Assembly: GCA_022775005.1 (NCBI GenBank) | Contig: JALFJR010000043.1 | Span: 1 to 58,371 of the forward strand | Direction: 5' to 3' | Length of the DNA: 58,371 bases | Origin: Parabacteroides sp. | Lineage (GTDB): Bacteria > Bacteroidota > Bacteroidia > Bacteroidales > Tannerellaceae | Shown here: positions 1 through 13,478 of the stretch, piece after piece | Position numbering within the stretch: the first letter of the stretch is position 1 | How the letters are laid out: every line of letters begins with the position of its first letter | Position numbers and translations under genes: made by a program | Notes under the pieces: generated by a model | The model's database searches: none | Seen by the model: the letters and a program-made list of their open reading frames with translations, nothing else | Told to the model about the DNA's origin: nothing

Positions 1-62
1 AACTATGTGAATGTAAAGATATACAGAACCACAGCCTTGGCTATGAGATGTATGATCTTTGG

Positions 63-89
63 AGGGATCCTTGCGGGGATCCCTTTTTT
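63..89 (+). terminator. Rho-independent terminator of an upstream gene
   Basis: An 8-bp perfect stem (AGGGATCC at 63-70, GGATCCCT at 77-84) with a 6-nt loop is followed by a run of six T. The gene it ends lies left of the window; a frame ending in TGA at 8-10 is compatible. Two other frames stay open through the hairpin, so the upstream gene end is not certain. Confidence 0.6.
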
Positions 90-100
90 ATGTCCGTTGA

Positions 101-331
101 ATGAGCCGAAATGGATGCACTGTGGTTAATCGAATGCTTACTATTATCAACCGAGAGTATGTTTACAAAGTAAATATTGGCAAGAAACAGCTGATCTTGG
201 CAGACATTCGCAACAATATTTCCATCCCCCTGGCCGCCTCAAAAGTGGCCCTCCGGCAGCTAAAGAATCACCTGGAGTCGCAACTCTCACTCCCCTCCTC
301 CTCCGACGGCACACATCGGCCCCCAAGATAA
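101..331 (+). CDS. Doubtful 76-residue ORF
   Basis: An open frame after the terminator encodes a peptide with a plausible middle part (residues 12-60, mixed hydrophobic and charged, ending in a helix-like stretch) and a low-complexity Ser/Pro tail. No family is recognised and no TAnnTTTG box lies in front of it. It may be a small lineage-specific gene, a fragment, or noncoding DNA; the rest of 90-455 shows nothing except the tandem repeat at 354-446. Confidence 0.15.
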   Translation: MSRNGCTVVNRMLTIINREYVYKVNIGKKQLILADIRNNISIPLAASKVALRQLKNHLESQLSLPSSSDGTHRPPR

Positions 332-353
332 CAAAAAATCGATTGCGATAGCT

Positions 354-446
354 TTTCTACAGGGTGAAAAATCTTCCCGCAAGCCGCGGCAGCCTTTCTA
401 CAGTGTGATATTTCTTCCCGCGAGCCGCGGCAGCCTTTCTACAGCG
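354..446. repeat. 41-bp imperfect tandem repeat, 2.2 copies
   Basis: The segment TTTCTACAG recurs at 354, 395 and 436, exactly 41 bp apart. Each full unit also holds CTTCCCGC and the palindromic core GCCGCGGC. The array lies just past the stop codon of the methyltransferase gene that ends the leftward cassette, so it would be in its 3' untranslated region and may mark the edge of the inserted segment. Confidence 0.75.
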
Positions 447-455
447 TGTATATTA

Positions 456-1961
456 TTAAACAGAAAAAACTTTCAACACTCTCGTCCATTTGTTACTACA
501 GCCAGTTGAATCATAGTCACGGCAAGAAAGGCTTGTTCCATGAGAAAAGTGCCTTTTTAGAAATGAGTTATTACATTGCCAAAATTCACCATGTTTAGTA
601 TTTTCCACATTATGATATATTACAAATGTAGGTTTGTTTCTAAAATGCGCCATAAAAGAATTAAGTCTGGCAGTTTTTATATCGTCAATATACGGACTGA
701 CACAAACAAAATAATTATTACAAGTTATAATACTGTCAACAACTGAAAGAAGATGTTGACTACTGTAATCATCAATGTCAAGTATATTTGAAAACAAATG
801 AATTGTAGGCACGTTATGTTGAACTTTTATATCGGAAGATATTACGTCATCCAGTTTTTTGCATACAGTTTTTAGTTTACCACTTGCAGCAAATTTTCTG
901 CAGTGCAGAGCAGCCCTCTTCAGAACAATTTCTGATGGTTCAACCAACGTTATATAGCGAACGTCTAAAGAGTCGTATTTTTCCAATAAGGTGATGGTCG
1001 CCAATCCCTGTCCACATCCCCAATCCACAATATTCACGGGAGTGTCGAAACTCTGGGGGAAAGTTGATTCAAATGAACTTATAAGTTTTGCATAATGCAT
1101 TTTACCATAACGTTTTATATACTCAAACATTTCCTCTTCTGAGTGTAATTGATCTACACCTCGCCCATTGAGAATGCCGTTAGCTCTATCAACACTAATT
1201 TGACGAATTGATATGAAATTATTTGGTACACGAGAAAGTGCATCGCAATAATCAGTTCCTTCTTCAATTAACAAGTTGTCTTCTGACTCTACTGCAACAT
1301 TTATGATTCTCGTGGTTAATGCATCTATTCTCTCTTCAATTTGTTGATAAACTGATTGAGAATTAGATACATCAAGAAGAGAAATATCTTCTATTTGTTT
1401 GAGCCAATTGTATTCTCCTTTATTATAAAGATCACAAAGTTTTTGTTTTGCTTCCGTTGCATAAACAATGTTAGTGTTATAAACAATGTGACCATAATAA
1501 TTAAGAAATGTCACCAGTGCTTTAGAGGGGTTGTCCTCTTCCTCAACAATTGCATCATTCAATAATTCACATATTTCATCGAACCGACCAACTAATTCTT
1601 CATTTGAAGATGGACGTGGGAACAGGAACTTTAAAGCAGCAGTCATCCTCTTGTTGATAACAATGTTATTCCTTTGAATAATATTCATAATGCGAGGAAT
1701 ACAACCATGCAATGCGAATCTTTCACACAAGTCGAGAAGGATTAGAACAAAAGAACGACTTTCTAAGGTTTGAAAATTATAATGAGAAATGATACCATTC
1801 TTAAGAAGAATCAATCGTTCAATATCATTCTTCTGTTGATATTGCGTTTGATATGGAGCATTGAAGAAATCTTGGATAGTCAAAAAATTTCTTTCAAGAC
1901 TATCCGCAAATGATGCCACATCATTGGATTCCTCTAAAAGTGTTTTAAATATCTCTTCCAT
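456..1961 (-). CDS. Class I SAM-dependent methyltransferase with long helical N-terminus
   Basis: This 501-residue protein carries a Rossmann-type methyltransferase core in its second half: motif I IVDWGCGQG at about 311-319 and the acidic end of strand 2, ITLVEPS, at about 337-343. Residues 1-290 look all-helical and match nothing I recognise; the substrate (DNA, RNA, protein) cannot be told, since no DNA-methylase catalytic motif such as NPPY or DPPY is seen. The layout, helical domain then small core, is a little like Rsm22-type rRNA methyltransferases, but that is only a guess. It is the last gene of a five-gene leftward operon, 2 bp after the preceding stop, and is visibly AT-rich compared with the chromosomal genes to the right. 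Confidence 0.8.
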   Translation of the reverse strand: MEEIFKTLLEESNDVASFADSLERNFLTIQDFFNAPYQTQYQQKNDIERLILLKNGIISHYNFQTLESRSFVLILLDLCERFALHGCIPRIMNIIQRNNIVINKRMTAALKFLFPRPSSNEELVGRFDEICELLNDAIVEEEDNPSKALVTFLNYYGHIVYNTNIVYATEAKQKLCDLYNKGEYNWLKQIEDISLLDVSNSQSVYQQIEERIDALTTRIINVAVESEDNLLIEEGTDYCDALSRVPNNFISIRQISVDRANGILNGRGVDQLHSEEEMFEYIKRYGKMHYAKLISSFESTFPQSFDTPVNIVDWGCGQGLATITLLEKYDSLDVRYITLVEPSEIVLKRAALHCRKFAASGKLKTVCKKLDDVISSDIKVQHNVPTIHLFSNILDIDDYSSQHLLSVVDSIITCNNYFVCVSPYIDDIKTARLNSFMAHFRNKPTFVIYHNVENTKHGEFWQCNNSFLKRHFSHGTSLSCRDYDSTGCSNKWTRVLKVFSV

Positions 1962-1963
1962 AA

Positions 1964-3598
1964 TTAAAACAGCTTACTATCTTGGCGTTTTTCTGCACGA
2001 AGAATGTAAATGATCAAATCTTCCGTTTTGCTCTGCCTATTGACTGTGCAACCATATTTCTTTGCCAAGTCTTTTAGCTCTTTCGATTTCAAGTTGCATA
2101 ATTCAATGATTTTTTTTGCATACTCTTCCTCGTTAAAACACGTGTTCTCCTGATTATTTGTTTGTAAAGAGAAAGTAACTGCGTTTTCCGGAACTACTAT
2201 CTCTTTATCTTTTAAAGATAATTGTTCCTTACACTTGTTTAGCTCTGTTTTTAGACGTAGTACTTCTGTATCGTTCATGTCTTTAATTGCCTGAATAGTT
2301 TCCTCGTATTCAGATGATATCTCCTCTTTCACTAAATATGCAAAAGGTTTAAGAATTGTTTCAATGATTATTGACGAGAAATCATAGCCAAGAAAATTGA
2401 CCTTATCTTTTTGCAGAAAAGATGCCAAACAGTTTTTCCACCATTCTTCGGAAAAAAGGATCGCTTTTTTTTTATCACATACAATAGTATCAAGTATCTG
2501 ATATTCTCCTCTCTTTGCTTTTCTATCCGTCAAAGTCTTTACCCAGGAATTGAACAAATCAAATTTCGCAGATACAATGTTATAGAAAGTGTACCTATAG
2601 ATACTCTCTATTGTATAGTAGTCAAGCAAAGAATTAAGTCGGTATTTTACATCTTCCGTTTTATTATCCTTTCTATATTGGTTATTAAATGATGCGTAAC
2701 CTCTATTATACCCATAATAAAGAGCACAACTTTCTTGATACCCTTGCTTGAGACTCGTAAAATTGTTTAATATTAGTTCATCGATTTTATAGCGACGAGC
2801 TTCTTCACCAACTCCATAATTATATAGAACATAACAAAGATATACACTATTTTCAAGGTTGCTCGGGTCAATGACTTTTGTTACTTTGCCCTTACTGATA
2901 AATTGTTTTTTCTCTAAAGCCTCATTTTCTAATGTTGTATAATCAACGACACGGTCTAGAAACGTGGGATGATTATCAAAAACCTTATGAAACTTAGTGG
3001 CATCATCAGAATTCATCGTCTTCTGACTTGCTATATAAGTGTTGAATTTAGAAAGCAGGTCAATATAGTGAGCAGAATAATTGCATCCATCTTCATGAGC
3101 AGTTCTCATCAACGCAATTGCACCTAGTATCCTATTATATTTATCATAGGAAGTTTTTATACTTTCCACAGATGAAACAATATCTTTTGGAACATGTACA
3201 ATGTTTGCATCGACCTTTTCGAACGTGTTATTCTTATCATCTACCAGGTAACTGGGAATAAACGCTGTCGAAAGCGTAATATTTGAGATTGTTCTATGAG
3301 CTTGAGCACTATTTTCAAAATATATTTTCTTTATTCTTGAAATAGGAATTGCGCTCTCAAACAAATAGAAGCCGCCATTTATGTCGACTAAGCTTTTTTC
3401 TTCTTCAAGAGTCAATATGATTTGGAGACAGCAATCGGATTCTAAACAGCCAAAATTATTGGTGAGTAAGATAAAATTCTCGAATTTATTTTGGATATCC
3501 GGCAATCTGTTTTTATATAGAGATGCAGGCAGGATACAAGCTTGGCCGAAAATTGCAGCCAAGGATGTTGACGATATGGGATAATAATAACTCTTCAT
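1964..3598 (-). CDS. Unknown 544-residue protein with C-terminal SAP-like domain
   Basis: I do not recognise the family of the main body. The N-terminal 120 residues are rich in short strands (starting MKSYYYPISS) and contain a pair of adjacent cysteines; the middle (about 150-440) is helical and rich in Tyr and Lys; about 450-480 is charged and likely coiled coil. The last 50 residues (LKSKELKDLAKKYG and after) look like a SAP or Rho-N type helix-extension-helix, a fold that usually binds nucleic acid. It sits between the helicase-like gene (11-bp gap) and the methyltransferase gene (2-bp gap), so it is likely a partner or target-recognition subunit of both. Its role is inference only. Confidence 0.75.
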   Translation of the reverse strand: MKSYYYPISSTSLAAIFGQACILPASLYKNRLPDIQNKFENFILLTNNFGCLESDCCLQIILTLEEEKSLVDINGGFYLFESAIPISRIKKIYFENSAQAHRTISNITLSTAFIPSYLVDDKNNTFEKVDANIVHVPKDIVSSVESIKTSYDKYNRILGAIALMRTAHEDGCNYSAHYIDLLSKFNTYIASQKTMNSDDATKFHKVFDNHPTFLDRVVDYTTLENEALEKKQFISKGKVTKVIDPSNLENSVYLCYVLYNYGVGEEARRYKIDELILNNFTSLKQGYQESCALYYGYNRGYASFNNQYRKDNKTEDVKYRLNSLLDYYTIESIYRYTFYNIVSAKFDLFNSWVKTLTDRKAKRGEYQILDTIVCDKKKAILFSEEWWKNCLASFLQKDKVNFLGYDFSSIIIETILKPFAYLVKEEISSEYEETIQAIKDMNDTEVLRLKTELNKCKEQLSLKDKEIVVPENAVTFSLQTNNQENTCFNEEEYAKKIIELCNLKSKELKDLAKKYGCTVNRQSKTEDLIIYILRAEKRQDSKLF

Positions 3599-3609
3599 AA
3601 ATATAAAGT

Positions 3610-4632
3610 TTATTCTACAACTTTGTTTAATGAATGGATAGGATAGTTGCTAAATAAATATAAATTTGTTTTTGCCCTTGTCACAGCAACATAGAAATCT
3701 TTCCAATCTAAGACCTCAAATTTATTGCATAAATAATCCATTGAGCCAAAATCTGGAACAAGAACGGTATCAAATTCCAAACCTTTGGCAGACTTGAAGG
3801 TCGTAATGTGAACATTATCAATTGGGGGACAGCCAATAGGAAACTCTTTATCGTCCTCATAATAGAAACTATGCGCTATTTCCATTTCATCAAGAATATC
3901 ATGATATTCTTTAACTGAATCCTTAAACGGAAGAAGGACAGCTATATTATGAGTATCTGTCCGAAAAGTTTTGATTATTTCTTTAATTGCATCGTCTCTT
4001 TTACTTCTGGCATTTTCATTAAAAAAAGGGTTACCATCTGTTACTATCAATGTGGGTTTTTCTCCAGGGTTGTTAGCCAATGCATCAAGAGTATCCTGCG
4101 GTATATAAGCGTCAGGAAAGGCAACTCGAGCAAATGTCATAATGGCCAAAGTGCTTCTGAAATTTCTATCAAGTACATATTCTACATTATTTTCAAATCG
4201 CTTTTTCAATTCTTTTTTAGTTGAAGAATGTTCAGGATAAAGAATCTGAGCATCATCTGCTCCATACGAAATGCTAAATCCAGAAATCTGGTCAAAGTAT
4301 TTGGCGTCAAGGTCCTGTGCCTCATCTATTATAATTTCACTAAAAATCTCTCTTCTCTTAGGACGACCTGCATATGCAGAACGAACGTTCCTGGATGCTT
4401 CGGGATTTCTCAAACGACAACATTCAGACAAATATCTGGCTAAAGTTGTTGTATAAGTTATAAGCAGACTTCTACTACCATTTCCATGGTTCGCAAGATG
4501 ACGATAAAGCGAAACTACACTTTTTCCTGTACCAGGACCACCAGAAAGTGCAATTTGTTCAGTTTCATTAAGCGCTGCTTGTTGTGGCAGTGTCAACTGT
4601 GTTATGGGTGGTAATCTGAAATAGTATGACAT
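3610..4632 (-). CDS. Minimal SF1 (UvrD/Rep-type) helicase-like ATPase
   Basis: At 340 residues this is about half the length of a normal UvrD helicase, yet it keeps the SF1 motif series in order: a Q-motif-like segment LTLPQQAAL (about 13-21), Walker A GGPGTGKS (31-38), Walker B IIDEAQDLD (about 101-109), the arginine motif DRNFRST (about 155), motif V-like TTFKSAKGLEFD (about 277) and motif VI VAVTRAK (about 317). The 1B and 2B insertions that grip DNA appear to be missing, and no nuclease domain is seen. It may therefore act as an ATP-driven switch or translocase for its operon partners rather than as a stand-alone helicase. Gaps to the flanking genes are 11 bp on each side. Confidence 0.85.
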   Translation of the reverse strand: MSYYFRLPPITQLTLPQQAALNETEQIALSGGPGTGKSVVSLYRHLANHGNGSRSLLITYTTTLARYLSECCRLRNPEASRNVRSAYAGRPKRREIFSEIIIDEAQDLDAKYFDQISGFSISYGADDAQILYPEHSSTKKELKKRFENNVEYVLDRNFRSTLAIMTFARVAFPDAYIPQDTLDALANNPGEKPTLIVTDGNPFFNENARSKRDDAIKEIIKTFRTDTHNIAVLLPFKDSVKEYHDILDEMEIAHSFYYEDDKEFPIGCPPIDNVHITTFKSAKGLEFDTVLVPDFGSMDYLCNKFEVLDWKDFYVAVTRAKTNLYLFSNYPIHSLNKVVE

Positions 4633-4643
4633 AACTTTATAAA

Positions 4644-5162
4644 TTATAATTCATTGCCTAGAAAGGACGTATCATTAAGATTACGAGGATAGAAAGACAA
4701 AGATAATTCGTCATATAAACCTAATCGAATTAGTGCATCGATGGCTTGATTTACTCCACTTTTTGCAGCCTGTTCATAGAGTTTAATCGCTCTATTCAAA
4801 TCGCTTTTAATACCTTTGCCCTGTTCAAGAGCAACAGCATAGTTGTATTTCCCAAAAGGATGCCCAGCAGCTGCGGCTTTTTGATAGTAGTGAACCGCTT
4901 TTTCATAATTAACTTCAATCCCATTGCCATAAAAATAGCACACACCTAAGTTATTATATGTCTCAGGGATGGTGGGCATTTCACTTTCAACAATATACTC
5001 CCAGCACTCAATAGCCTCTGCAAACATTTGACTTCTTGCAAAATCTGTTCCAATATTGCTTATCTCTATTACATCGCCATTCAGAGCTGCCTGCATTCTG
5101 TTTTCATCATAGTAAAAACAATTATAATAGTCGGCAAGTATTTCTTCTAAATTCTTTTTCAT
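4644..5162 (-). CDS. Sel1/TPR-repeat protein, 172 residues
   Basis: Two Sel1-type repeats are visible in the middle: one around NNLGVCYFYGNGIEVNYEKA and one around YNYAVALEQGKGIKSDLNRA, each followed by the typical YxxAAxxG helix. There is no signal peptide, so it is likely cytoplasmic, serving as a protein-protein interaction scaffold. It lies 8 bp after the DUF1848 gene and 11 bp before the helicase-like gene, which places it inside the same transcript. Sel1-repeat proteins are common accessory parts of multi-gene systems, but nothing in the sequence names its partner. Confidence 0.8.
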   Translation of the reverse strand: MKKNLEEILADYYNCFYYDENRMQAALNGDVIEISNIGTDFARSQMFAEAIECWEYIVESEMPTIPETYNNLGVCYFYGNGIEVNYEKAVHYYQKAAAAGHPFGKYNYAVALEQGKGIKSDLNRAIKLYEQAAKSGVNQAIDALIRLGLYDELSLSFYPRNLNDTSFLGNEL

Positions 5163-5170
5163 TGTATTTA

Positions 5171-6238
5171 TTATTTCCCAGTTATGGTATCAGCATAGGG
5201 ATTTTCCTTATGTTTCTTCCAATTATTAATAGCCAATTCTTTGGATGCATTAGCATAACAATACTCGCAAAGATGCGGACAGGTGTTATATTCACCAATA
5301 TCTTTGGATGCCATACATTCACAGAATTGCCTTTGTCCGGAATCTTTCTTGTGGGTACTGATAAAGTAATGGTTGTGAGGCAAGGGTATTGCACCCTGTG
5401 GCAACTCCGGCTTCCCAAACAAAGTAGGAGCAGGAGCATCCTCTATCTTTACCTTCATGAATTCCATAAGTTCCTTATCATCCCAGGCAAGCCAGGTTAT
5501 GAGGTCACCGTCTATACAACGGTTATGAAGAATGCCATACTTGGAAATATCTATCTTCTCTCCACATGTAGCCAGTTGGAAATTCCAGCCTCGTTCTCGA
5601 TTCATGGCAGATAGCCTGTCGGCAAACTCTTCCATTTGCTCATTTTCCCATTCGTGGTAAGGAATGCCGCTTACTTCAAGATTATGCTTGACTTTCTTGT
5701 ACATGGCTATATCTGCATAACTGAATACAAGTTTCTCTGTATAATCTTTCAGTTGGTCACCAATGTTCTGAACTTTCCCCAGTAAGTCATCGACCGATAT
5801 GTCATCAGTCAATATCATAGGGTCAAACCTCCAAATTACAGCCCCCTTGCCTAATTGCTCAACAAGCATTTTGAAAGTTTCTATACGATTAGCCAGAGAA
5901 GGTACCTTTTCAAGTTTCTCTTGTTCGTAGTCATTCAAAGTGTATTGAATGTAACATTTAATATTTCGTTCCTTCAGTATGTGTAGATACGGCAACAAAG
6001 GTCGAGGATTTTTTGACCAAAACACAATGAATCGTGTGTTCTTGTACGATACATAGCCTTTTACACCATTAAAAGGATTGGTCCATGCGGAATAACCCAC
6101 CTTCAACCGATTGAAGAACCAATCGGCATAGAAGGCCGGAATATCCGTACTTCTGCTTGCGGAGACAATCATCGGCACCTGCATCGATACCACTTCTCCA
6201 TTTTCTTTCGGTAGATTCTCTTTATTCCATGTTGCCAT
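5171..6238 (-). CDS. DUF1848 family protein with C-terminal Fe-S/radical SAM-like motif
   Basis: The 355-residue protein begins with the family signature MIVSASRSTDIPAFYADWF (about residues 23-41) and continues with WSKNPRPLLPYL and IWRFDPMIL, as in DUF1848. Near the C-terminus are C306, C308, C320, C324 and C327; the last three form CX3CX2C, the spacing of radical SAM enzymes, but at the wrong end of the protein. The Pfam family description makes the same comparison. A 4Fe-4S cluster and SAM chemistry are therefore plausible, substrate unknown. It is the first gene of the leftward cassette; its start at 6238 follows a TAnnTTTG-type box at 6286-6293. Base composition is less AT-rich than the four genes after it. 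Confidence 0.85.
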   Translation of the reverse strand: MATWNKENLPKENGEVVSMQVPMIVSASRSTDIPAFYADWFFNRLKVGYSAWTNPFNGVKGYVSYKNTRFIVFWSKNPRPLLPYLHILKERNIKCYIQYTLNDYEQEKLEKVPSLANRIETFKMLVEQLGKGAVIWRFDPMILTDDISVDDLLGKVQNIGDQLKDYTEKLVFSYADIAMYKKVKHNLEVSGIPYHEWENEQMEEFADRLSAMNRERGWNFQLATCGEKIDISKYGILHNRCIDGDLITWLAWDDKELMEFMKVKIEDAPAPTLFGKPELPQGAIPLPHNHYFISTHKKDSGQRQFCECMASKDIGEYNTCPHLCEYCYANASKELAINNWKKHKENPYADTITGK

Positions 6239-6285
6239 AAATTTGCATGGGACTGTTCTTGATTAGGTTTGTCAAATTCTGATCA

Positions 6286-6340
6286 CAAAAATATAAAAAT
6301 AATTGCAGACTATCGTAAGTACGAAACGACAATCTGCAAT
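6286..6340 (-). promoter_or_regulatory. Promoter -7 box and overlapping palindrome ahead of the cassette
   Basis: Read on the minus strand, TATTTTTG (CAAAAATA at 6286-6293) fits the Bacteroidota -7 consensus and lies 48 bp before the DUF1848 start. A long inverted repeat covers the upstream part: ATTGCAGACTATCGT at 6302-6316 and ACGACAATCTGCAAT at 6326-6340, 13 of 15 positions pairing around a 9-nt loop. Its place over the expected -33 region suggests an operator, but it could instead be an old terminator stem. No clear -33 TTTG is seen. Confidence 0.5.
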
Positions 6341-6398: not shown

Positions 6399-6740
6399 TT
6401 ATCTCTTTCGTTTTACACCATTACTGCTGACCATCTTTGGTGTCTGCAACAAACGTCTTTTGCGGTAAGCTTCTTCCTCTTCATCTGGGTTGCGCCTGTC
6501 CCATCTCAAATCGAAAGTCGTACCTCCACCACCTCCAGAAGACGGGATTGGTCTGCCTCCAATAAGAGCATCAGCAATAGCCAAAATCTGAGCTCGTAAG
6601 GATGGTACACTCAACTGATCGAGCAACTGGCGATAGACATAATCCTGCTGATGGCTGCTGTCCATTAGGGATTCGTAGTCACCACGCAATTGATTCAACT
6701 CCCGGTAATCTGCCAGTACGTTCTTCTGCGCAGCCTTCAC
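6399..6740 (-). pseudogene. Fragment resembling the C-terminus of a mobilization protein
   Basis: A 113-residue frame opens at a GTG (6740) that is preceded in frame by TAA six codons upstream, so there is no room for a normal N-terminus. It contains a helical segment, then a Gly-rich linker SSGGGGGTTFDLRWD, an acidic run DEEEEAYRKR and a basic tail. This order recalls the tails of Bacteroidales relaxase/mobilization proteins, but the match is by eye and weak. It is most simply a leftover of an integrated mobile element upstream of the cassette. A small intact gene cannot be excluded. Confidence 0.35.
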
Positions 6741-6889: not shown

Positions 6890-7087
6890 ATGAATACCTA
6901 TAACTTACAACGATTTTTGGATGCACAGGATAGATATGATAGCACCCAAAGCGCATTGGAGGAACTAAGACAGGACCGAAAGCGGAGTCATTGGATTTGG
7001 TTTATCTTGCAGGAAATGTTCGGAGAATTACAGCCCCCTATAAATGAAAAAAGCCATCCATCACGGACAGCCAATCTCAATTGTTAA
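6890..7087 (+). pseudogene. Truncated DUF1810 gene
   Basis: The first 39 residues are a clear DUF1810 N-terminus: YNLQRFLDAQ, a second helix, then GRKRSHW-like RKRSHWIWFI. At about 7007 the family sequence breaks off and runs into LQEMFGEL and then into noncoding repeat DNA. A normal member is about 140-150 residues, so roughly 100 residues are lost. A stretch near 7480-7545 (in frame ending FKQVLQAMSGE and stop) resembles a DUF1810 C-terminus and shares its last codons with this copy, so an internal deletion or recombination between duplicates is likely. Confidence 0.7.
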
Positions 7088-7167
7088 CCTTAAATCTAAT
7101 ACCATGAAAAACACGATGCAAATATAGGGGTTTTATGTTATACAGCATGCTTTTGCGACATAAACCT
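7007..7167. repeat. Direct repeat, copy A
   Basis: Positions 7035-7153 are almost identical to 7558-7677 (one single-base insertion and a few substitutions), with weaker similarity extending left to about 7007 and right to about 7167. The left extension matches the end of the DUF1810 reading frame in both copies. The best conserved part covers exactly a minus-strand promoter-to-terminator unit. Confidence 0.85.
7047..7112 (-). ncRNA. Candidate small RNA, copy A
   Basis: On the minus strand TATATTTG (CAAATATA at 7119-7126) fits the -7 consensus. About 40 bp on comes a terminator: GGCTGTCC and GGATGGC (plus-strand 7053-7071) pair with two G-U wobbles, which work only in minus-strand RNA, followed by TTTTTT. 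The implied RNA is about 65 nt. The same unit is repeated at 7570-7636. No -33 TTTG is seen, so transcription is inferred. Multi-copy sRNA families are known in Bacteroides, but membership cannot be judged here. Confidence 0.45.
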
Positions 7168-7314
7168 TTCATGCTTTAATGTTTTTTATATATTAGGCCA
7201 CAGAAAGTCTTTCTAAACAGCATCTGCTCTATCCATCTTTGTGTAATTTAGTCGCTGCTAATGCAGCGATCATTGTTTAATCTTATTTGAACTCACATTA
7301 ATTCAAAAGATAGT

Positions 7315-7488
7315 ATGTTGGTTTTCGGCTTGCTTTTTATATTTGTATGCGGTGTTGCCTATGTTCATATACTGAATAATAAGTCAGTACAAAGCGGCAA
7401 TCCTTCCAATCCATATTTGGTGGAAGATGATGGAATATATGAAGATGATACGTATAGAAGCCATTTTTCTGAGGAGGAACGCTACTGA
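7315..7488 (+). CDS. Possible 57-residue single-pass membrane peptide
   Basis: An ATG at 7315 opens a 57-residue frame. The first 20 residues (MLVFGLLFIFVCGVAYVHIL) form a convincing transmembrane segment or signal; the rest is acidic and polar (VEDDGIYEDDTYRSHFSEEE). It lies between the two repeat copies. No promoter box of the usual type is obvious, and the family is not recognised. Small acidic one-helix proteins like this occur on mobile elements, but the frame may also be chance. Confidence 0.35.
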   Translation: MLVFGLLFIFVCGVAYVHILNNKSVQSGNPSNPYLVEDDGIYEDDTYRSHFSEEERY

Positions 7489-7529
7489 GCAGATTCGATG
7501 ATACGCAATGCTTTTTCTTTAAGCAGGTC

Positions 7530-7691
7530 TTGCAGGCAATGTCCGGGGAATAACAAACCCCTATAAATGAAAAAAGCCATCCATCACGGACAGCCAATCT
7601 CCAATTGTTAACCTTAAATCTAATACCATGAAAAACACGATGCAAATATAGGGGTTTTATGTTATACAGCATACTTTTACGGCATGAATCT
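7530..7691. repeat. Direct repeat, copy B
   Basis: Second copy of the block at 7007-7167; the best part is 7558-7677. The 5' edge holds codons that read LQAMSGE and stop, parallel to LQEMFGEL in copy A, showing that both copies were duplicated together with the 3' end of a DUF1810-like gene. Confidence 0.85.
7570..7636 (-). ncRNA. Candidate small RNA, copy B
   Basis: The same minus-strand unit as copy A: -7 box TATATTTG (CAAATATA at 7643-7650) and a wobble-containing terminator stem (7576-7582 with 7588-7594) followed by a T run (plus-strand A at 7570-7575). That the promoter box, stem and T run are all preserved in both copies while the flanks diverge argues for a functional RNA. Confidence 0.45.
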
Positions 7692-7916
7692 TTTGTTATT
7701 TAATATTTTTTCAACTATCTAGAGGGGATTTTTACGTAGCTTAAGCTTTTTTTCGATAGATACATCCGTATGCTCTACCCCGACTCTCCTCGTCACCCCC
7801 GTCTGCGTTATCTGTTAACGGTGAAAGGAAGTTTGTTATATAAAGAAATCAGTATGAAACATTAACGATAAAAACAGCTGTCTTGCCACCTGAGTTCCCT
7901 GCAGCCACTATCGCAG

Positions 7917-8045
7917 CTCTATTGTAGCTCTGCTGCTCCTCCGTAGTAACTCCGTTGTTCCTCCGAAGCTACTCTAATCTGGCTCTAATCTGGAATTAGA
8001 GAATGATTAGAGGTTGATTAGAGATCAATTAGAGATGGATTAGAG
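7917..8045. repeat. 11-bp phased array in two opposed halves
   Basis: CTCTA, CTCTG, CTCCG, CTCCG, CTCCG, CTCTA and CTCTA start at 7917, 7928, 7939, 7950, 7961, 7972 and 7983, exactly 11 bp apart. Then the inverse motif ATTAGAG starts at 7995, 8006, 8017, 8028 and 8039, again every 11 bp. The inner units (CTCTAATC and GATTAGAG) can pair as a hairpin around 7990-7994. One motif per helical turn would put all sites on one DNA face. The array ends about 40 bp before the promoter box of the Xaa-Pro aminopeptidase gene. From 7692 to 7916 I see nothing else. Confidence 0.85.
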
Positions 8046-8087
8046 GTAAAGTAGGGGAACATAAGTGGAAGAAGAATGAAAAATGCG

Positions 8088-8095
8088 TACATTTG
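8088..8095 (+). promoter_or_regulatory. -7 promoter box of the peptidase operon
   Basis: TACATTTG fits TAnnTTTG and lies 29 bp ahead of the ATG at 8125. It overlaps the first codons of the longer frame that opens at 8083, which is why the start at 8125 is preferred. No clear -33 TTTG is present. Confidence 0.55.
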
Positions 8096-8124
8096 CCCGA
8101 AAGTTGACTAAAAATTACAATGCA

Positions 8125-9912
8125 ATGAAAACGAACATACCTCAGCGTATAGCTGCTCTTCGTGAGGCCATGCGCCAACAACATGTAGATGCGTACATTA
8201 TTCCCAGCTCTGACCCACATCTGAGCGAGTATCCAGCCGATCGTTGGAAGTCAAGAGCATGGATCTCTGGTTTCGATGGTTCGGCTGGAACGGTGGTCGT
8301 GACAGCGGATAAGGCTGGCCTTTGGACCGACTCTCGCTACTTCTTGCAAGCGGAAGCCCAATTGGAGGATAGCGGTATAGACCTCTATAAAATGAAATTA
8401 CCCGAAACACCCTCTATCCCTGATTTCCTGTTAGAGAATCTGCACCAAGGACAAGCGGTTGGCTTGGATGGCCTTTGTTATAGCGCAGAAGAGGCTCGTG
8501 ACTTAGCGGCTGTTTTGGCCAAACAGGGTATCCGGCTTGATAGTTCTGCCGACCTGATGGAGGGCATTTGGAGCGATCGCCCGGCGATTCCTGCCAATAA
8601 GATCTTCCGTATGCCTACCGAATTGAGCGGAGCTTCTGTCAGCGATAAGTTAGATCAGTTGAACAACCAATTGCGTCAAGCAGGAGCGGATTGCATGGTA
8701 TTGGCTGCTTTGGACGAGGTGGCTTGGACCTTCAATATCCGTGGCACGGACGTGACCTATAATCCTGTGGCTGTGGCTTATGGATTTGTCTCCGAAGAGG
8801 AGAGCGTTTTGTTTATCCAGCCCGAGAAGCTGACAGCGGAAGTGGCTGAGGAGCTGAAGAAAGAGGGAGTGATCTTAGCCGATTATTCACGGATTGATTA
8901 CTACTTGGCGCATCTGCCTGCCGGCAAACGGGTGTTTGTTGATATGAGCAAGACGAATGTGGCACTCTATAACGCCATCCCCAAAAACTGTGTAATTGTA
9001 GAGGGTATCTCACCAGCCAACCATTTAAAGAGCGTGAAGAACGCCACAGAAATCAAAGGTTATCGTAACGCCATGGTGAAAGATGGTATCGCTCTCACGA
9101 AATTCTACCGTTGGTTAGAGCAGCAGTTGGCAGCAGGACAAAAGGTGACGGAAATCAGCGCAGCCGACAAGTTGACGGCTTTGCGTGCCGAGCAACCGCA
9201 ATATATTATGGACAGTTTCGCCACAATCTGCGGTTATGCGGGGCATGGGGCGATCGTGCATTATTCCGCCACGCCAGAGACAGATGTAGAGATTCGTCCG
9301 GAAGGTTTGTTGCTGATTGATTCGGGAGCGCAGTATTTGGATGGTACGACTGACATCACCCGCACCATTGCATTGGGTGAGCCGACCGATCAGATGAAAA
9401 AGGATTATACCCGTGTATTGAAAGGTACGATCAGTTTAGCGAAATGCAAGTTCCCGGAAGGTACCCGTGGCTGTCAGTTAGACATTTTGGCCCGCAAAGC
9501 TTTGTGGGATGCCGGTATCAATTATCTGCATGGCACGGGACATGGCGTTGGTCATTGCCTCAACGTGCATGAAGGGCCGCAGAGCATTCGTATGGAGGAG
9601 AACCCCGTGACCTTGAAAGCGGGCATGGTGATGAGCGACGAGCCAGCCATGTATCGCACCGGAGAATATGGGATTCGTACGGAGAACATGATCCTGGTGC
9701 GCCCCGACAGCCAGACAGAGTTTGGTGCGTTCTTGGCATTTGATACCTTGACGCTCTGCTACATCGACACCAGCCTCATCATTGTCTCGATGCTCTCTCC
9801 TCGTGAACACGCTTGGCTGAACAAATACCATCAACACGTATATGAGACTTTGAGTCCGCACCTCAACGCAGAGGAGCAGGCTTGGCTCAGAGAGAAGACA
9901 GCGGAGATTTGA
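8125..9912 (+). CDS. pepP: Xaa-Pro aminopeptidase (aminopeptidase P, M24B)
   Basis: This 595-residue enzyme should release the N-terminal residue from peptides with proline in second position. It has two creatinase-like N-terminal domains (IPSSDPHLSEYPADRW and LWTDSRYF near the start) and a C-terminal pita-bread domain with the metal ligands in DSGAQYLDGTTDITRT, HGTGHGVGHCLNVHEGP, SDEPAMYRTGEYGIRTEN. The length matches the long, three-domain, cytoplasmic form; no signal peptide is seen. The frame is open from 8083, but the ATG at 8125 gives the usual family start and leaves room for the promoter box. It opens a four-gene rightward run of peptidase-related genes with gaps of 40, 25 and 30 bp. 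Confidence 0.95.
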   Translation: MKTNIPQRIAALREAMRQQHVDAYIIPSSDPHLSEYPADRWKSRAWISGFDGSAGTVVVTADKAGLWTDSRYFLQAEAQLEDSGIDLYKMKLPETPSIPDFLLENLHQGQAVGLDGLCYSAEEARDLAAVLAKQGIRLDSSADLMEGIWSDRPAIPANKIFRMPTELSGASVSDKLDQLNNQLRQAGADCMVLAALDEVAWTFNIRGTDVTYNPVAVAYGFVSEEESVLFIQPEKLTAEVAEELKKEGVILADYSRIDYYLAHLPAGKRVFVDMSKTNVALYNAIPKNCVIVEGISPANHLKSVKNATEIKGYRNAMVKDGIALTKFYRWLEQQLAAGQKVTEISAADKLTALRAEQPQYIMDSFATICGYAGHGAIVHYSATPETDVEIRPEGLLLIDSGAQYLDGTTDITRTIALGEPTDQMKKDYTRVLKGTISLAKCKFPEGTRGCQLDILARKALWDAGINYLHGTGHGVGHCLNVHEGPQSIRMEENPVTLKAGMVMSDEPAMYRTGEYGIRTENMILVRPDSQTEFGAFLAFDTLTLCYIDTSLIIVSMLSPREHAWLNKYHQHVYETLSPHLNAEEQAWLREKTAEI

Positions 9913-9952
9913 AACTCATAATTCAAAACTCATAATTCAAAATTTCAAAGTT

Positions 9953-10477
9953 ATGGCACTTATTAAATCAGTCAGGGGATTTACCCCGAAAATTGGGAAA
10001 GATACATTTTTAGCAGATAACGCAACGATCATCGGCGACGTAGAGATCGGCGAGGGATGCAGCATCTGGTTCGGCACTGTGCTGCGTGGCGATGTGAACT
10101 CTATCCGCATCGGCAATGGCGTGAACGTGCAGGACGGCTCTGTGCTCCACACGCTGTATGAGAAATCAACCATTGAGATCGGCGATGACGTATCCATCGG
10201 TCATAACGTCACGATTCATGGTGCGAAGATTTGCCACGGTGCGTTGATCGGTATGGGTTCTGTCGTGCTGGATCATGCCGTGATTGGCGAGGGTGCAATC
10301 GTAGCGGCTGGATCGGTCGTGTTGAGCAAGACGATCGTGGAGCCGGGTAGCATTTATGCCGGTGTACCCGCTAAGTTTGTCAAGAAGGTGGATCCCGAGC
10401 AATCCAAGGAGATCAACCAGAAGATTGCTAAAAACTATCACATGTACTCCTCTTGGTACACGGAGGAAGAAAAGTAA
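9953..10477 (+). CDS. Gamma carbonic anhydrase-like hexapeptide-repeat protein
   Basis: The 174-residue protein is a left-handed beta helix of the YrdA/PaaY/CaiE type, built from hexapeptide repeats such as IGDVEIGEGCSIWFGTVLRG. The three zinc-binding histidines of the family are present at H66 (SVLH), H84 (SIGH) and H89 (TIHG), so it can bind metal; actual carbonic anhydrase activity is variable in this family and is not proven. It ends in a C-terminal helix. It lies 40 bp after pepP; that gap holds two copies of AACTCATAATTCAAAA, a likely slippage duplication. Confidence 0.93.
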   Translation: MALIKSVRGFTPKIGKDTFLADNATIIGDVEIGEGCSIWFGTVLRGDVNSIRIGNGVNVQDGSVLHTLYEKSTIEIGDDVSIGHNVTIHGAKICHGALIGMGSVVLDHAVIGEGAIVAAGSVVLSKTIVEPGSIYAGVPAKFVKKVDPEQSKEINQKIAKNYHMYSSWYTEEEK

Positions 10478-10502
10478 GTATTCATTTTAAATCATACACC
10501 CC

Positions 10503-12044
10503 ATGAAATCCAACAAATTATTCGGTATGATCGCAGCAGTGGGCTTGCTGTTCACCCACTTCTCTTGCCAGCAGGAGCAGAAGATCCCGCGTATCGGCAT
10601 TGCCGGTATCGCTATTGAGTGTAGTACTTTCTCCCCCGCCGTTTCCGACGAGGCTTCCTTCCGTGTGCGTAAGGGAGAGGATGTGTTGAAGGGGTATCCC
10701 TTCTTAGCGGCTGACTCTACTTTGCGTCAAAAGGCGGAGTGGCTCCCAGCGATGGTCAGCAGCGCCACTCCGGGTGGTATCGTGACGAGAGAGGCCTACG
10801 AATCATTGACCAAGCAGACGCTTGAACTGTTGAAACAGAACGCACCCTACGATGCGCTGTTCTTGGATATTCATGGGGCGATGAGCGTGCAGGGATTGGA
10901 CGATCCCGAGGCTGACTTCATCAACCGGGTACGTTCGGTGATTGGTGACGAAGCGATCATCTCCACCTGTATGGACCTGCATGGGAACCCGAGTCAAGAG
11001 CTGACCCGCAAGTCGGATCTGATCACTTGCTACCGCATGGCTCCTCACGAGGATTCCATGGATTCCAAACGTCGCGCTGTGGCGAACCTGATCGAGCGCA
11101 TCGAGAAGGGTTTAGGCAAGCCAGCCTACAAGGCATGGGTGAGCGTTCCCATCCTGCTGCCAGGCGAGAAAACCTCTACCCGTGTGGAGCCGGGCAAATC
11201 GCTCTATGCGAAAGTGGCTCCCGAGGCAGACAAGCCGGGCGTAACAGATGCGGCTATCTGGATTGGTTATGCGTGGGCAGACGAACCTCGTAACCACGGC
11301 ACGGTGATCGTAACAGGTGATGACAAGCAGCAGGTGGAGCAATCCGCGCTCTACTTGGCGAAGAGCTTCTGGGAGGTGCGTAAACAGTTTGAGTTCGTGG
11401 CTCCGACCGATGAGTTAGAGGTCTGCTTGGCCGCTGCCTTGAAAAGCGACAAGAAGCCCTTCTTTATCAGTGATATGGGTGACAACCCCACTGCGGGTGG
11501 CGCAGGCGACGTGACCTGGACATTGACTGAACTGAGCAAGCGCAAAGAGTTCAAGTCAGCCAATGGCCCTTCATTGGTCTATGCCTCTATCCCCGGTCCG
11601 GAATTGGTGCAGAAAGCCTTCGAGTTAGGCGTTGGCAAGGAGATCAGCGGTGAGGTGGGTGCGAAAGTAGATTTTCGATATGCGCCTCCTTTCCCCTTAA
11701 AGGGCAAGATCATCGCCCTTGGCGAGCAGAACCCGAAGAACCGTGAGGCTGTCATTCAGATGGGCAGTATGAAGGTGATCGTCACCGAGAAGCGTCGTGG
11801 CTATCACGAGGCGAAGAGCTTAGAGGCCTTGGGCATCAAACCTGCTGAGACCGACATCATCGTTGTGAAGTTAGGCTACCTCACCAAGGGACTCTATGAT
11901 GTACGAGGCGACTGGATGATGGCCCTCACGCGTGGTGGTGTGGATCAGGATCTGTTGAAGCTGACCTACAACCGTATCGACCGCCCAATGTTCCCCTTCG
12001 ATGCGGATATGCCCGATCCGGAATTTAAGGTCGTAGATTTATAA
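10503..12044 (+). CDS. M81-family (MlrC-like) metallopeptidase, lipoprotein
   Basis: A 513-residue protein that starts with a lipoprotein signal (hydrophobic stretch then THFSC, with Cys22 as the lipidated residue), so it is exported and anchored, probably in the periplasm or outer membrane. The mature part follows the MlrC pattern: GIAIECSTFSP at the start, DIHGAM and DLHGNPS in the N-terminal domain, and the MlrC C-terminal domain with DMGDNPTAGGAGDVTW. MlrC was described for microcystin breakdown, but members in gut bacteria act on unknown peptides or amides. It lies between a carbonic anhydrase-like gene and a C1 peptidase in one operon. Confidence 0.92.
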   Translation: MKSNKLFGMIAAVGLLFTHFSCQQEQKIPRIGIAGIAIECSTFSPAVSDEASFRVRKGEDVLKGYPFLAADSTLRQKAEWLPAMVSSATPGGIVTREAYESLTKQTLELLKQNAPYDALFLDIHGAMSVQGLDDPEADFINRVRSVIGDEAIISTCMDLHGNPSQELTRKSDLITCYRMAPHEDSMDSKRRAVANLIERIEKGLGKPAYKAWVSVPILLPGEKTSTRVEPGKSLYAKVAPEADKPGVTDAAIWIGYAWADEPRNHGTVIVTGDDKQQVEQSALYLAKSFWEVRKQFEFVAPTDELEVCLAAALKSDKKPFFISDMGDNPTAGGAGDVTWTLTELSKRKEFKSANGPSLVYASIPGPELVQKAFELGVGKEISGEVGAKVDFRYAPPFPLKGKIIALGEQNPKNREAVIQMGSMKVIVTEKRRGYHEAKSLEALGIKPAETDIIVVKLGYLTKGLYDVRGDWMMALTRGGVDQDLLKLTYNRIDRPMFPFDADMPDPEFKVVDL

Positions 12045-12074
12045 ATCCTCTATTCCTAATATTAACGATAAGAC

Positions 12075-13478
12075 ATGAAAAAGAACTTCCTTTGGATAGC
12101 CGCCCTCACACTGGGGGCGACGCTATCCGCACAAGCGCAACAAGCGGATGGAGGCATCTCTCCCCAGCAGTTGCAGCAGATCAAGCAGGCCTATCAAGGG
12201 ACACCTGCCGACAAGGCGATTCGCAACGCTATCGCCAACAACGACATCAACAAGTTGGCGGTTAACAGCGAGAGCCTCAACAACCTCGACACCCACTTCT
12301 CTGACAAAGTGGAGAGCAAGGGTATCTCTAACCAACGCTCCTCGGGCCGCTGCTGGCTCTTCACGGGGCTGAATGTGCTCCGTGCCCGCACCATCGCCAA
12401 GTATGGCATGGGCGAGTTCCAGTTCTCTCAGAATTACAGCTTCTTCTGGGATCAATTGGAAAAGGCTAACCTCTTTTTGCAAGGTATCATCGACACCCGT
12501 GAGAAACCGCTCGACGACAAGATGGTGGAGTGGCTCTTCAAGAATCCTGTGGGCGACGGTGGCCAATACACCGGTGTCTCCGACCTGCTAATGAAGTATG
12601 GCGTAGTGCCTGCCGAGGTGATGGTCGAGACCAACAGCAGCAACAACACCAGCCGCATGTCGAACCTCCTACGTCTGAAACTGAAAGAGTTCGGTTTGGA
12701 ACTGCGTGATAAGGCAGCTAACAAAGTGTCTGTGGCTGATTTAGGCAAGCGTAAGACAGAGATGCTTGGCACCATCTATCGCATGTTGGTGCTGAACCTT
12801 GGCGAGCCGCCTACAAAGTTCACCTGGACACGCAAGGACGCCAAGGGCAATCCCGTGGAGACAAAGGAATACACCCCGCAGTCGTTCTATGCCGAGTATA
12901 TCGGTGAGGACTTGAAGAGCAACTACGTGATGCTGATGAACGATCCGAGCCGAGAGTATTACAAGCTCTACGAGATCGACTACGACCGTCATGTCTATGA
13001 TGGCTACAACTGGACCTACGTGAACCTGCCAATCGAAGACATCAAGCAGATGGCAATCGCCTCCATCAAGGACAGCACGATGATGTATTTCTCCTGCGAT
13101 GTAGGTAAATTCTTCGATCGTGAACGGGGCATCCTCGATGTGAACTACCTCGACTATGGCTCGCTGATGGGCACCACTTTCGGTATGGACAAGAAACAAC
13201 GCATCCAAACCTTCGCCAGCGGTTCCTCGCACGCCATGACCCTCATGGCAGTTGACTTGGACAAGGCAACGGGTAAGCCGAAGAAATGGATGGTGGAAAA
13301 TAGCTGGGGACCGGGAGCCAACGCTGGTCACCTCATCATGACCGACGAATGGTTCAACGAGTACATGTTCCGTTTGGTAGTGAACAAAAAGTACATCACC
13401 GACAAGGTGAAATCCATCCTCCAGCAGAAGCCCGTCCGCTTGCCGGCCTGGGATCCGATGTTTGCGGATGAGGATTGA
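12075..13478 (+). CDS. C1-family aminopeptidase (PepC/bleomycin hydrolase type), exported
   Basis: A 467-residue papain-fold peptidase. The catalytic triad can be read as Cys93 (SSGRCWLFTG), His386 (SSHAMTLM) and Asn409 (VENSWGPG), all intact. In contrast to cytoplasmic PepC it has a signal peptide (LTLGATLSAQAQ), so it probably works in the periplasm, trimming residues from peptides. It closes the four-gene peptidase run; a terminator follows 24 bp after the stop. Confidence 0.95.
   Translation: MKKNFLWIAALTLGATLSAQAQQADGGISPQQLQQIKQAYQGTPADKAIRNAIANNDINKLAVNSESLNNLDTHFSDKVESKGISNQRSSGRCWLFTGLNVLRARTIAKYGMGEFQFSQNYSFFWDQLEKANLFLQGIIDTREKPLDDKMVEWLFKNPVGDGGQYTGVSDLLMKYGVVPAEVMVETNSSNNTSRMSNLLRLKLKEFGLELRDKAANKVSVADLGKRKTEMLGTIYRMLVLNLGEPPTKFTWTRKDAKGNPVETKEYTPQSFYAEYIGEDLKSNYVMLMNDPSREYYKLYEIDYDRHVYDGYNWTYVNLPIEDIKQMAIASIKDSTMMYFSCDVGKFFDRERGILDVNYLDYGSLMGTTFGMDKKQRIQTFASGSSHAMTLMAVDLDKATGKPKKWMVENSWGPGANAGHLIMTDEWFNEYMFRLVVNKKYITDKVKSILQQKPVRLPAWDPMFADED

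Follow-up and report, generated by a model that had tools for sequence, protein, structure and literature searches.

A five-gene cassette at one end of a 58,371-nucleotide (nt) contig of Parabacteroides sp. (GenBank assembly GCA_022775005.1, contig JALFJR010000043.1) forms a single unit and moves as a unit. Its constant core consists of a helicase, a protein combining ADP-ribosyltransferase (ART) and ADP-ribose glycohydrolase (ARG) domains, and a methyltransferase, and it is accompanied by either a DUF1848 protein or, in related loci, an AlkB dioxygenase. We tentatively propose that the cassette is a horizontally moving conflict system that would modify nucleic acid, most likely RNA. The window referred to below is this entire contig (G000:C77; genome of 3.14 Mb in 109 contigs), and since its low end is the contig end, the view stops beyond the methyltransferase gene.

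A first-pass annotation of the window had described five leftward genes in an AT-rich region next to tandem repeats, and this layout was borne out. The coordinates of the open reading frames agree, the gaps between them are 8, 11, 11 and 2 bp, the GC content is 0.33-0.38 over positions 1-6000 compared to 0.40-0.54 in the remaining 2-kb windows, and 41-nt tandem repeats were found at 345-426. The gene identities given there were corroborated by Pfam for the DUF1848, Sel1 and UvrD-type helicase genes; the methyltransferase match is weak in Pfam, while its family retains the residues D313, G315 and G317. The features of the cassette, in the direction of the genes, are the following:

6239..6307, minus strand: 69 bp upstream of the cassette, common to the window and locus L002; upper edge of the homologous block (blastn) and putative promoter region
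5171..6238, minus strand: DUF1848 protein (first of the five genes; 355 aa), TIM-barrel-like; CxxxCxxC motif in its C-terminal part (Pfam 1.5e-88; model and fold comparison)
5243..5302, minus strand: segment DIGEYNTCPHLCEYCYANAS, aa 313-332 at the C-terminus of the DUF1848 protein, radical-SAM-type cysteine motif (alignment, hhalign)
4644..5162, minus strand: Sel1-repeat protein, 172 aa, accessory (Pfam Sel1 5.3e-21)
3610..4632, minus strand: small superfamily 1A (SF1A, UvrD-type) helicase, 340 aa, core (Pfam UvrD_C 3.3e-11; motifs)
1964..3598, minus strand: ART/ARG protein with SAP-like end, 544 aa, core (Pfam, 14-row alignment)
3242..3589, minus strand: 2CompART domain, aa 4-119 (Pfam; D34, Q36 and R88 invariant in 14 of 14 rows)
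2672..3154, minus strand: 2CompARG domain, aa 149-309 (Pfam)
1979..2131, minus strand: SAP/HeH-like three-helix C-terminal segment, aa 490-540 (predicted model)
456..1961, minus strand: class I S-adenosylmethionine (SAM) methyltransferase, 501 aa, with a long N-terminal part, core (weak Methyltransf_25; D313, G315, G317)
345..455, no strand: region of 41-nt tandem repeats past the methyltransferase stop; lower block edge, near the contig end

A conserved helicase-ART-methyltransferase core

The 2CompART profile (PF22546) was searched in overlapping genome samples from one phylum, with the window's own genome counted where it was sampled. Matches were found in 2 of 38 genomes of the window's genus, 4 of 395 of its class, 4 of 395 of its phylum and 8 of 393 of its order (7 over the cut-off), giving a patchy over-cut-off distribution; further matches came from the genus of G663 (2/65), the family of G085 (1/2) and the family of G058 (1/148), and none from 14 control genomes. 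The match in G901 (L033) was dropped, as it lies under the cut-off, contains two stops and has flanks without a core gene. In total, 14 genomes carry 15 ART/ARG copies, including the Prevotellaceae genome RUG418 (L002) and G149, which has two (L012 and L013). Besides the window and these three, the loci are L009, L010, L011, L016, L017, L027, L028, L029, L030, L031 and L032, with L012/L013 counted as one.

In all 14 loci the helicase gene immediately precedes the ART gene (partially in L028, at a contig end), and the methyltransferase gene follows the ART gene in 13 of 13 loci where this is visible, the contig of L016 ending within the ART gene. The order helicase-ART-methyltransferase was found in 13 genomes, the window's included, and its recurrence exceeds chance. 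Cassette genes are separated by no more than 28 bp or overlap, the overlaps depending on the start codon chosen. Of the helicase, methyltransferase, Sel1 and DUF1848 genes, whose linkage to the 544-aa protein the first-pass annotation put up for checking, the first two stay with it wherever visible; Sel1, listed there as part of the set, occurs in the window and L002 only (2 of 14 loci) and is not of core rank.

The fourth gene encodes DUF1848 in nine loci (window, L002, L009, L016, L017, L027, L030, L031 and L032, where the contig carries just the DUF1848 C-terminal end) and an AlkB dioxygenase in three (L010, L011 and L012/L013), while in L028 and L029 the contig starts at or shortly before the helicase and the fourth gene is out of view. 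DUF1848 and AlkB were never found together, and each of the 12 visible loci has exactly one of them. In eight loci DUF1848 precedes the helicase, with Sel1 between them in two, while in L017 it is the last gene; AlkB is the last gene in each AlkB locus. One locus (L009) additionally encodes an HD protein of Cas3-HD likeness. On an ART tree of 13 rows, built without L002 and L013, two changes (one or more of them forced) account for the AlkB label, and 109 of 500 shuffles came out equally low; repeated swapping is therefore not demonstrated.

The ART/ARG protein and its core partners

In the first-pass annotation, the 544-aa protein was taken for the target-recognition part of the set. Pfam instead places 2CompART (PF22546, E 1.1e-31, 109.9 bits) and 2CompARG (PF22545, 8.3e-15, 55.7 bits) domains in it, both over the curated cut-off of 27 bits. 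These domains have been described and given their Pfam names by others, although the source paper behind the names was not found in the literature searched. Both domains also exceed the cut-offs in L010 and L028, among the five of 14 ART proteins that were scanned with Pfam. Judging from its domains, its constant partners and its faster divergence, the protein is more likely an effector than a recognition subunit. A search of the PDB with its sequence alone gave nothing at E 10. Within a structure prediction that is unusable elsewhere, its C-terminal SAP-like segment is modelled best (pLDDT by block 65, 81, 75, 68 and 56), and a similar segment appears, by eye, to be placed N-terminally in L011 and L012 (Rho_N E 0.16 in L011). 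SAP domains bind DNA.

The helicase belongs to SF1A, with Walker A and B and motifs III to VI recognizable (GGPGTGKS, DEAQD, TTFKSAKGLEFD and VAVTRAK) and the key residues retained by all 16 aligned sequences, including two from the divergent loci described below; searched against plasmids at 1e-10, it returned no match. For the methyltransferase, the best Pfam E value is 0.0084, under the curated cut-off, yet D313, G315 and G317 are invariant in 16 of 16 aligned rows. No DNA-methyltransferase family matched it in Pfam or NCBIfam at E 1, and PADLOC gave no match for either the methyltransferase or the Sel1 protein of the window. A methyltransferase-profile search found 10 places in 9 of 178 genomes, 5 of which are ART cassettes; those in G132, G094 and G001 belong to other modules, and the one in G169 stands alone. 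A match in G137 (4.2e-4) looked unrelated and was set aside.

DUF1848 and AlkB as alternative partners

The motif cysteines of DUF1848 are invariant in 14 of 14 aligned proteins, and the profile of its C-terminal segment matches four spore-photoproduct-lyase-like radical-SAM proteins (P 2.6e-5, hhalign), so that DUF1848 is probably a permuted radical-SAM enzyme. It occurs in 24 of 149 genomes of the window's order, at 26 places. Among the 23 places examined for neighbours, 7 have a core gene nearby: 6 in 1.5-kb flanks, the window included, and L059 (identical with L089) in a larger stretch. This count excludes the fragments L075 and L077, while L074 shows just the DUF1848 gene upstream of L032. 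The first-pass view of DUF1848 as a member of the set stands insofar as it behaves like a core gene; however, AlkB takes its place in 3 of 12 visible loci, and DUF1848 also occurs alone. One further DUF1848 protein, 84% identical to the window's (L101, 602-4373), is encoded beside AlbA_2-type and helix-turn-helix genes (by eye), and no helicase, ART or methyltransferase match was found within the 8 kb fetched there. DUF1848 was not mentioned in the open-access literature searched.

Among solved AlkB structures, the AlkB proteins of two ART loci (L011 and L010; L012 was not searched separately) are closest to ALKBH8, with E values of 1.4e-29 versus 1.4e-9 for the next molecule in one case and 1.5e-27 versus 9.3e-15 in the other, and their alignment displays the HxD...H...R motif. 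No phage match was obtained with the AlkB of L010 at 1e-10. ALKBH8 is an animal enzyme that acts on the wobble uridine of tRNA, and its AlkB domain, like the AlkB of the cassettes, stands next to a SAM methyltransferase; in the cassettes, however, the two are separate bacterial genes, and the likeness drawn here for the methyltransferases is one of position. Since this AlkB is of the ALKBH8 subtype, RNA is the more plausible target.

These assignments also bear on a restriction-like scheme, in which the methyltransferase and DUF1848 or AlkB would mark host DNA while the helicase and the ART protein would block unmarked phage DNA. The UvrD/GajB-like helicase and the SAP-like segment fit this scheme, as does a locus (L088) in which AlkB lies beside a methyltransferase-helicase fusion with DpdF likeness. 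We nevertheless regard it as improbable, given that the AlkB proteins of two ART loci resemble the tRNA-acting type and that the window's methyltransferase matches no DNA-methyltransferase family.

Movement and exchange of the cassette

Window positions 455-6307 and L002 positions 7295-13144 constitute one blastn block of 5.86 kb with 90.6% DNA identity and unrelated flanks. The block begins 69 bp before DUF1848 and stops at the methyltransferase stop, and outside it the first 8 kb of the window have no other match to L002 at E 1e-3. Cassette proteins of the two genomes are 86-94% identical, whereas a RUG418 protein of housekeeping type (by eye, Ffh-like) reaches just 75% with the most similar protein of the window's genome. 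Between window and L002, the ratio of nonsynonymous to synonymous substitution rates (dN/dS) is 0.09-0.43 in all five genes, while dS differs between them (Sel1 0.066, helicase 0.15, methyltransferase 0.29, ART 0.39, DUF1848 0.65), a spread that may reflect recombination within the cassette. The reading of the five genes as one set is supported by this shared block, by the recurring core order and by the movement of the genes as a unit.

A different kind of exchange is suggested by L030 and L031. Because their DUF1848 proteins (94.7%) and both flanks (83-90% at the DNA level) are similar while helicase (36.5%), ART (30.0%) and methyltransferase (34.0%) are divergent, the three core genes seem to have been replaced as a block. 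In both loci, which belong to two genera, 53-nt direct repeats, 92% identical between copies, flank the cassette (L030 389-441 and 6056-6108; L031 7177-7229 and 12693-12745), with the replaced core genes between them; no third copy was found in the fetched stretches. These repeats are possibly the ends of a mobile unit or an interspersed repeat. The two copies in G149, L012 and L013, are 99.7% identical over 5790 bp with mostly different flanks, although two copies may be an assembly effect (about 400 contigs, 5% contamination). The second of them, L013, has a 300-nt perfect direct repeat on both sides (2000-2299 and 9158-9457) as well as smaller internal repeats.

The idea that unrelated genes have come together by chance or simple clustering in a defence island is very improbable in light of these observations. 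It would agree with the occurrence of DUF1848 genes without other cassette genes and with the lack of Sel1 in 12 of 14 loci, but 14 genomes share the same core with its close or overlapping genes, a sharp-ended block moves as one unit, and helicase, ART and methyltransferase appear to have been exchanged together between L030 and L031.

Across seven DUF1848-type loci, each of the 21 pairs shows DUF1848 as better conserved than the helicase and the helicase as better conserved than ART; the methyltransferase ranks below the helicase in all 15 pairs in which the two were compared.

A divergent branch and modular relatives

Four additional loci (L040, L042, L089 and L093) contain methyltransferase, helicase and DUF1848 genes around a protein of 692-807 aa, termed X. 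Two of them are L040, an unverified faecal scaffold of a phage collection (MT835661), and L042, an IMG/VR contig; L089 is from G001, within the window's genus, and L093 from G848. The X protein of L040, the one tested, has no significant Pfam match, and that of L042 has no PADLOC match. Comparison of the X and ART profiles revealed two collinear blocks (X 1-31/ART 1-33 and X 418-479/ART 251-319) with scores of 30.5 and 27.9, exceeding the best of 60 column-shuffled controls (19.0). X is likely homologous to the ART family, but this is not secure, since HHalign's own probabilities for the blocks are low (3.6% and 1.9%) and D34, Q36 and R88 are not visibly retained in the two X proteins aligned.

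The methyltransferase is also paired with AlkB or DUF1848 in loci without ART. Such methyltransferase-AlkB pairs include one on a Moraxella plasmid and one in L090, which stands alone and has its AlkB split across two frames; one plasmid with such a pair also carries a viperin-family gene. In Picosynechococcus, the pair lies beside RAMP/Cmr CRISPR genes on pAQ6 and in PCC 7003 and beside a reverse transcriptase on pAQ5, following a kinase-WYL protein in each (domains checked in pAQ5 and pAQ6). This order of kinase (AAA_33)-WYL, methyltransferase and AlkB on cyanobacterial plasmids (L034, L035 and L036), next to RAMP/Cmr CRISPR or reverse transcriptase genes, has the look of a module in its own right, for RNA repair or defence. 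The AlkB gene in L088 (7147-12262) lies beside a gene for a 1499-aa fusion of methyltransferase and DpdF-like helicase, with large ATPase-like genes nearby (by eye). Methyltransferase and DUF1848 without ART are found in L094 and L095, and DUF1848 near a methyltransferase-helicase fusion in L096 and L039. The latter, a faecal phage-collection scaffold (6961-11221), encodes a trypsin-like protease first, then DUF1848 and an 880-aa methyltransferase-SF1 helicase fusion, and perhaps represents a shared chassis with another effector.

Genomic surroundings and comparison with known systems

Several cassettes have defence-related neighbours: nSTAND3-Mrr and AlbA_2 genes in L002, Mrr in L016 and HD-CE in L010. 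Of 10 hand-picked flank proteins, PADLOC matched five (L012, L017, L029, L030 and L031); the five without a match comprise three of L010 and one each of L029 and L030. In the window, the fragment at 6399-6740 had been called mobilization-like, a label that could not be upheld, as tblastn at E 1e-3 against 72,556 plasmid records gave no match and the sole Pfam match, SbcD_C, is below the cut-off. Further upstream of the cassette lie two direct repeats of 74 and 110 nt, 91-92% identical and spaced by 523-524 bp, with terminator-like stems (7005-7187 and 7528-7711). Promoter-like sites (29 observed) are not enriched over shuffled sequences (27.0, s.d. 6.1), so no promoter claim is drawn from them.

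In agreement with the first-pass annotation, which knew of no described system with this gene set, the ART proteins tested, those of the window, L009, L010 and L027, had no match among the PADLOC families, and no description of the five-gene set was found in the literature searched, although an earlier description of the operon may exist. The closest precedent is the pair of Pfam families itself, which contains the 544-aa protein by curated cut-offs; these names cover the domains alone, while the helicase, methyltransferase and DUF1848/AlkB partners lie outside them. CmdTAC likewise has an ADP-ribosyltransferase effector within a multi-gene bacterial system, but is composed of toxin, antitoxin and SecB-like chaperone, whereas Pfam finds no SecB-like chaperone among the cassette genes; a term search of its main text (PMC11618068) for helicase, methyltransferase and AlkB came back empty. 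DarT-DarG and DraT-DraG share the combination of an ADP-ribose writer and remover, and the ARG-centred systems of Iyer et al. (2022) share an ARG core, having been selected for the absence of a coupled ART according to section 3.8 of that article (PMC9503650). Unlike DarT-DarG and DraT-DraG, the cassette joins both halves in one protein and adds a helicase, a methyltransferase and an iron enzyme, and no separate macrodomain or NADAR antitoxin of the DarTG type was detected by Pfam in the five genes.

Individual proteins also resemble components of other systems. The window's DUF1848 matches PADLOC RTasDUF1848 (5.2e-37), and the methyltransferases of L010 (1.2e-11), L011 (4.4e-20) and plasmid pAQ5 (6.8e-125) match C3a159, in which we take "C3a" to mean CRISPR type III accessory. 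However, the five genes of the cassette include no CRISPR gene and, by Pfam and PADLOC, no reverse transcriptase, which sets it apart from DRT systems; C3a159 was also considered as a DRT class 3 gene, a reading abandoned in view of the pAQ5 and pAQ6 contexts. The helicase has a UvrD-type match to GajB of Gabija (2e-14, PADLOC), but the best match spans a short stretch of the 604-position profile, and GajA was not matched by any of the five genes (for the helicase, among the best 25 of 32 families).

Proposed function of the cassette

In the conflict system that we tentatively favour, the SF1 helicase would load on or unwind the target, the ART half would add ADP-ribose to it, and the ARG half would remove ADP-ribose or restrain the toxic activity. 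The methyltransferase and an iron-dependent modifier, either DUF1848 as a probable permuted radical-SAM enzyme or the ALKBH8-like AlkB, may act on the same target; their step would mark or repair the cell's own RNA, with ADP-ribosylation as the harmful step. The conserved operon, the domain assignments, the replacement of DUF1848 by AlkB, the dN/dS values below 0.5 and the movement as a unit are observed. What we infer from them is catalysis, the sequence of steps, the choice of RNA over DNA as the target, and an anti-phage activity triggered by phages. The proposal is also favoured by the patchy distribution, the defence-type neighbours of some loci, the ART-free methyltransferase-AlkB pairs next to CRISPR, kinase-WYL, reverse transcriptase or viperin-family genes, and the lower conservation of ART relative to helicase and DUF1848.

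Several observations weigh against this proposal. Judged from the alignment, the main point against catalysis is the absence of an evident ART glutamate in the 14 rows, the best acidic column (66) containing E in 12 and D in 2. Two of the five Pfam-scanned ART proteins (L011 and L017) reach 2CompART but not 2CompARG, the 14-row ART/ARG profile gave no significant PDB match (best E 0.2), and the AlphaFold model of the ART protein, built from a two-sequence input, was unusable (pLDDT 34). Core neighbours are lacking at 16 of the 23 examined DUF1848 places, 9 of which were viewed in larger stretches and 7 to 1.5 kb. RNA as the target is drawn from a single likeness, that to ALKBH8, and the AlkB of the Moraxella pair is ALKBH2/3-like. 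The PADLOC-matched flank proteins come from a hand-picked set without a chance baseline, and ART queries matched no plasmid, phage or viral-contig record.

Some of these points would also suit a possible, though rather unlikely, repair or immunity set that reverses RNA damage, for example in tRNA, inflicted by phages or rival bacteria. Its ARG half would strip foreign ADP-ribose, AlkB or DUF1848 would reverse base damage and the methyltransferase would seal or mark the product, while the ART-like half would merely bind NAD+ or ADP-ribose. Direct reversal of damage is the repair mode of AlkB and of spore-photoproduct-lyase-like enzymes. The lack of an evident catalytic glutamate, the absence of nuclease families from the five genes (Pfam scan) and the methyltransferase-AlkB pairs beside a kinase/WYL protein are consistent with this, and poly(ADP-ribose) glycohydrolases (PARGs) can shield against an RNA-targeting ART toxin (PMC11833690). 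A pure repair set, however, would not need an ART half, whose polar residues D34, Q36 and R88 are unchanged in 14 of 14 rows, and the faster divergence of ART and methyltransferase relative to DUF1848 better fits an attacker or sensor.

A further reading, which we consider doubtful, is a double writer-eraser, in which one operon would add and remove ADP-ribose (ART/ARG) and would likewise add a second mark and oxidise or remove it (methyltransferase with the ALKBH8-like AlkB or the permuted radical-SAM enzyme) on the same RNA, probably tRNA, to which the helicase would lead it. If true, such a combined tRNA checkpoint would be new in phage defence, and DUF1848, exchangeable for AlkB, would become a radical-SAM enzyme with a part in nucleic-acid modification. 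Nucleic-acid ADP-ribosylation is a young field in phage defence, and an operon in which an ART/ARG protein is coupled to a helicase, a methyltransferase and either of two iron enzymes that replace each other offers a concrete, testable system. The cassette also gives a first clue to what DUF1848 may do and places ALKBH8-type AlkB enzymes in a bacterial context.

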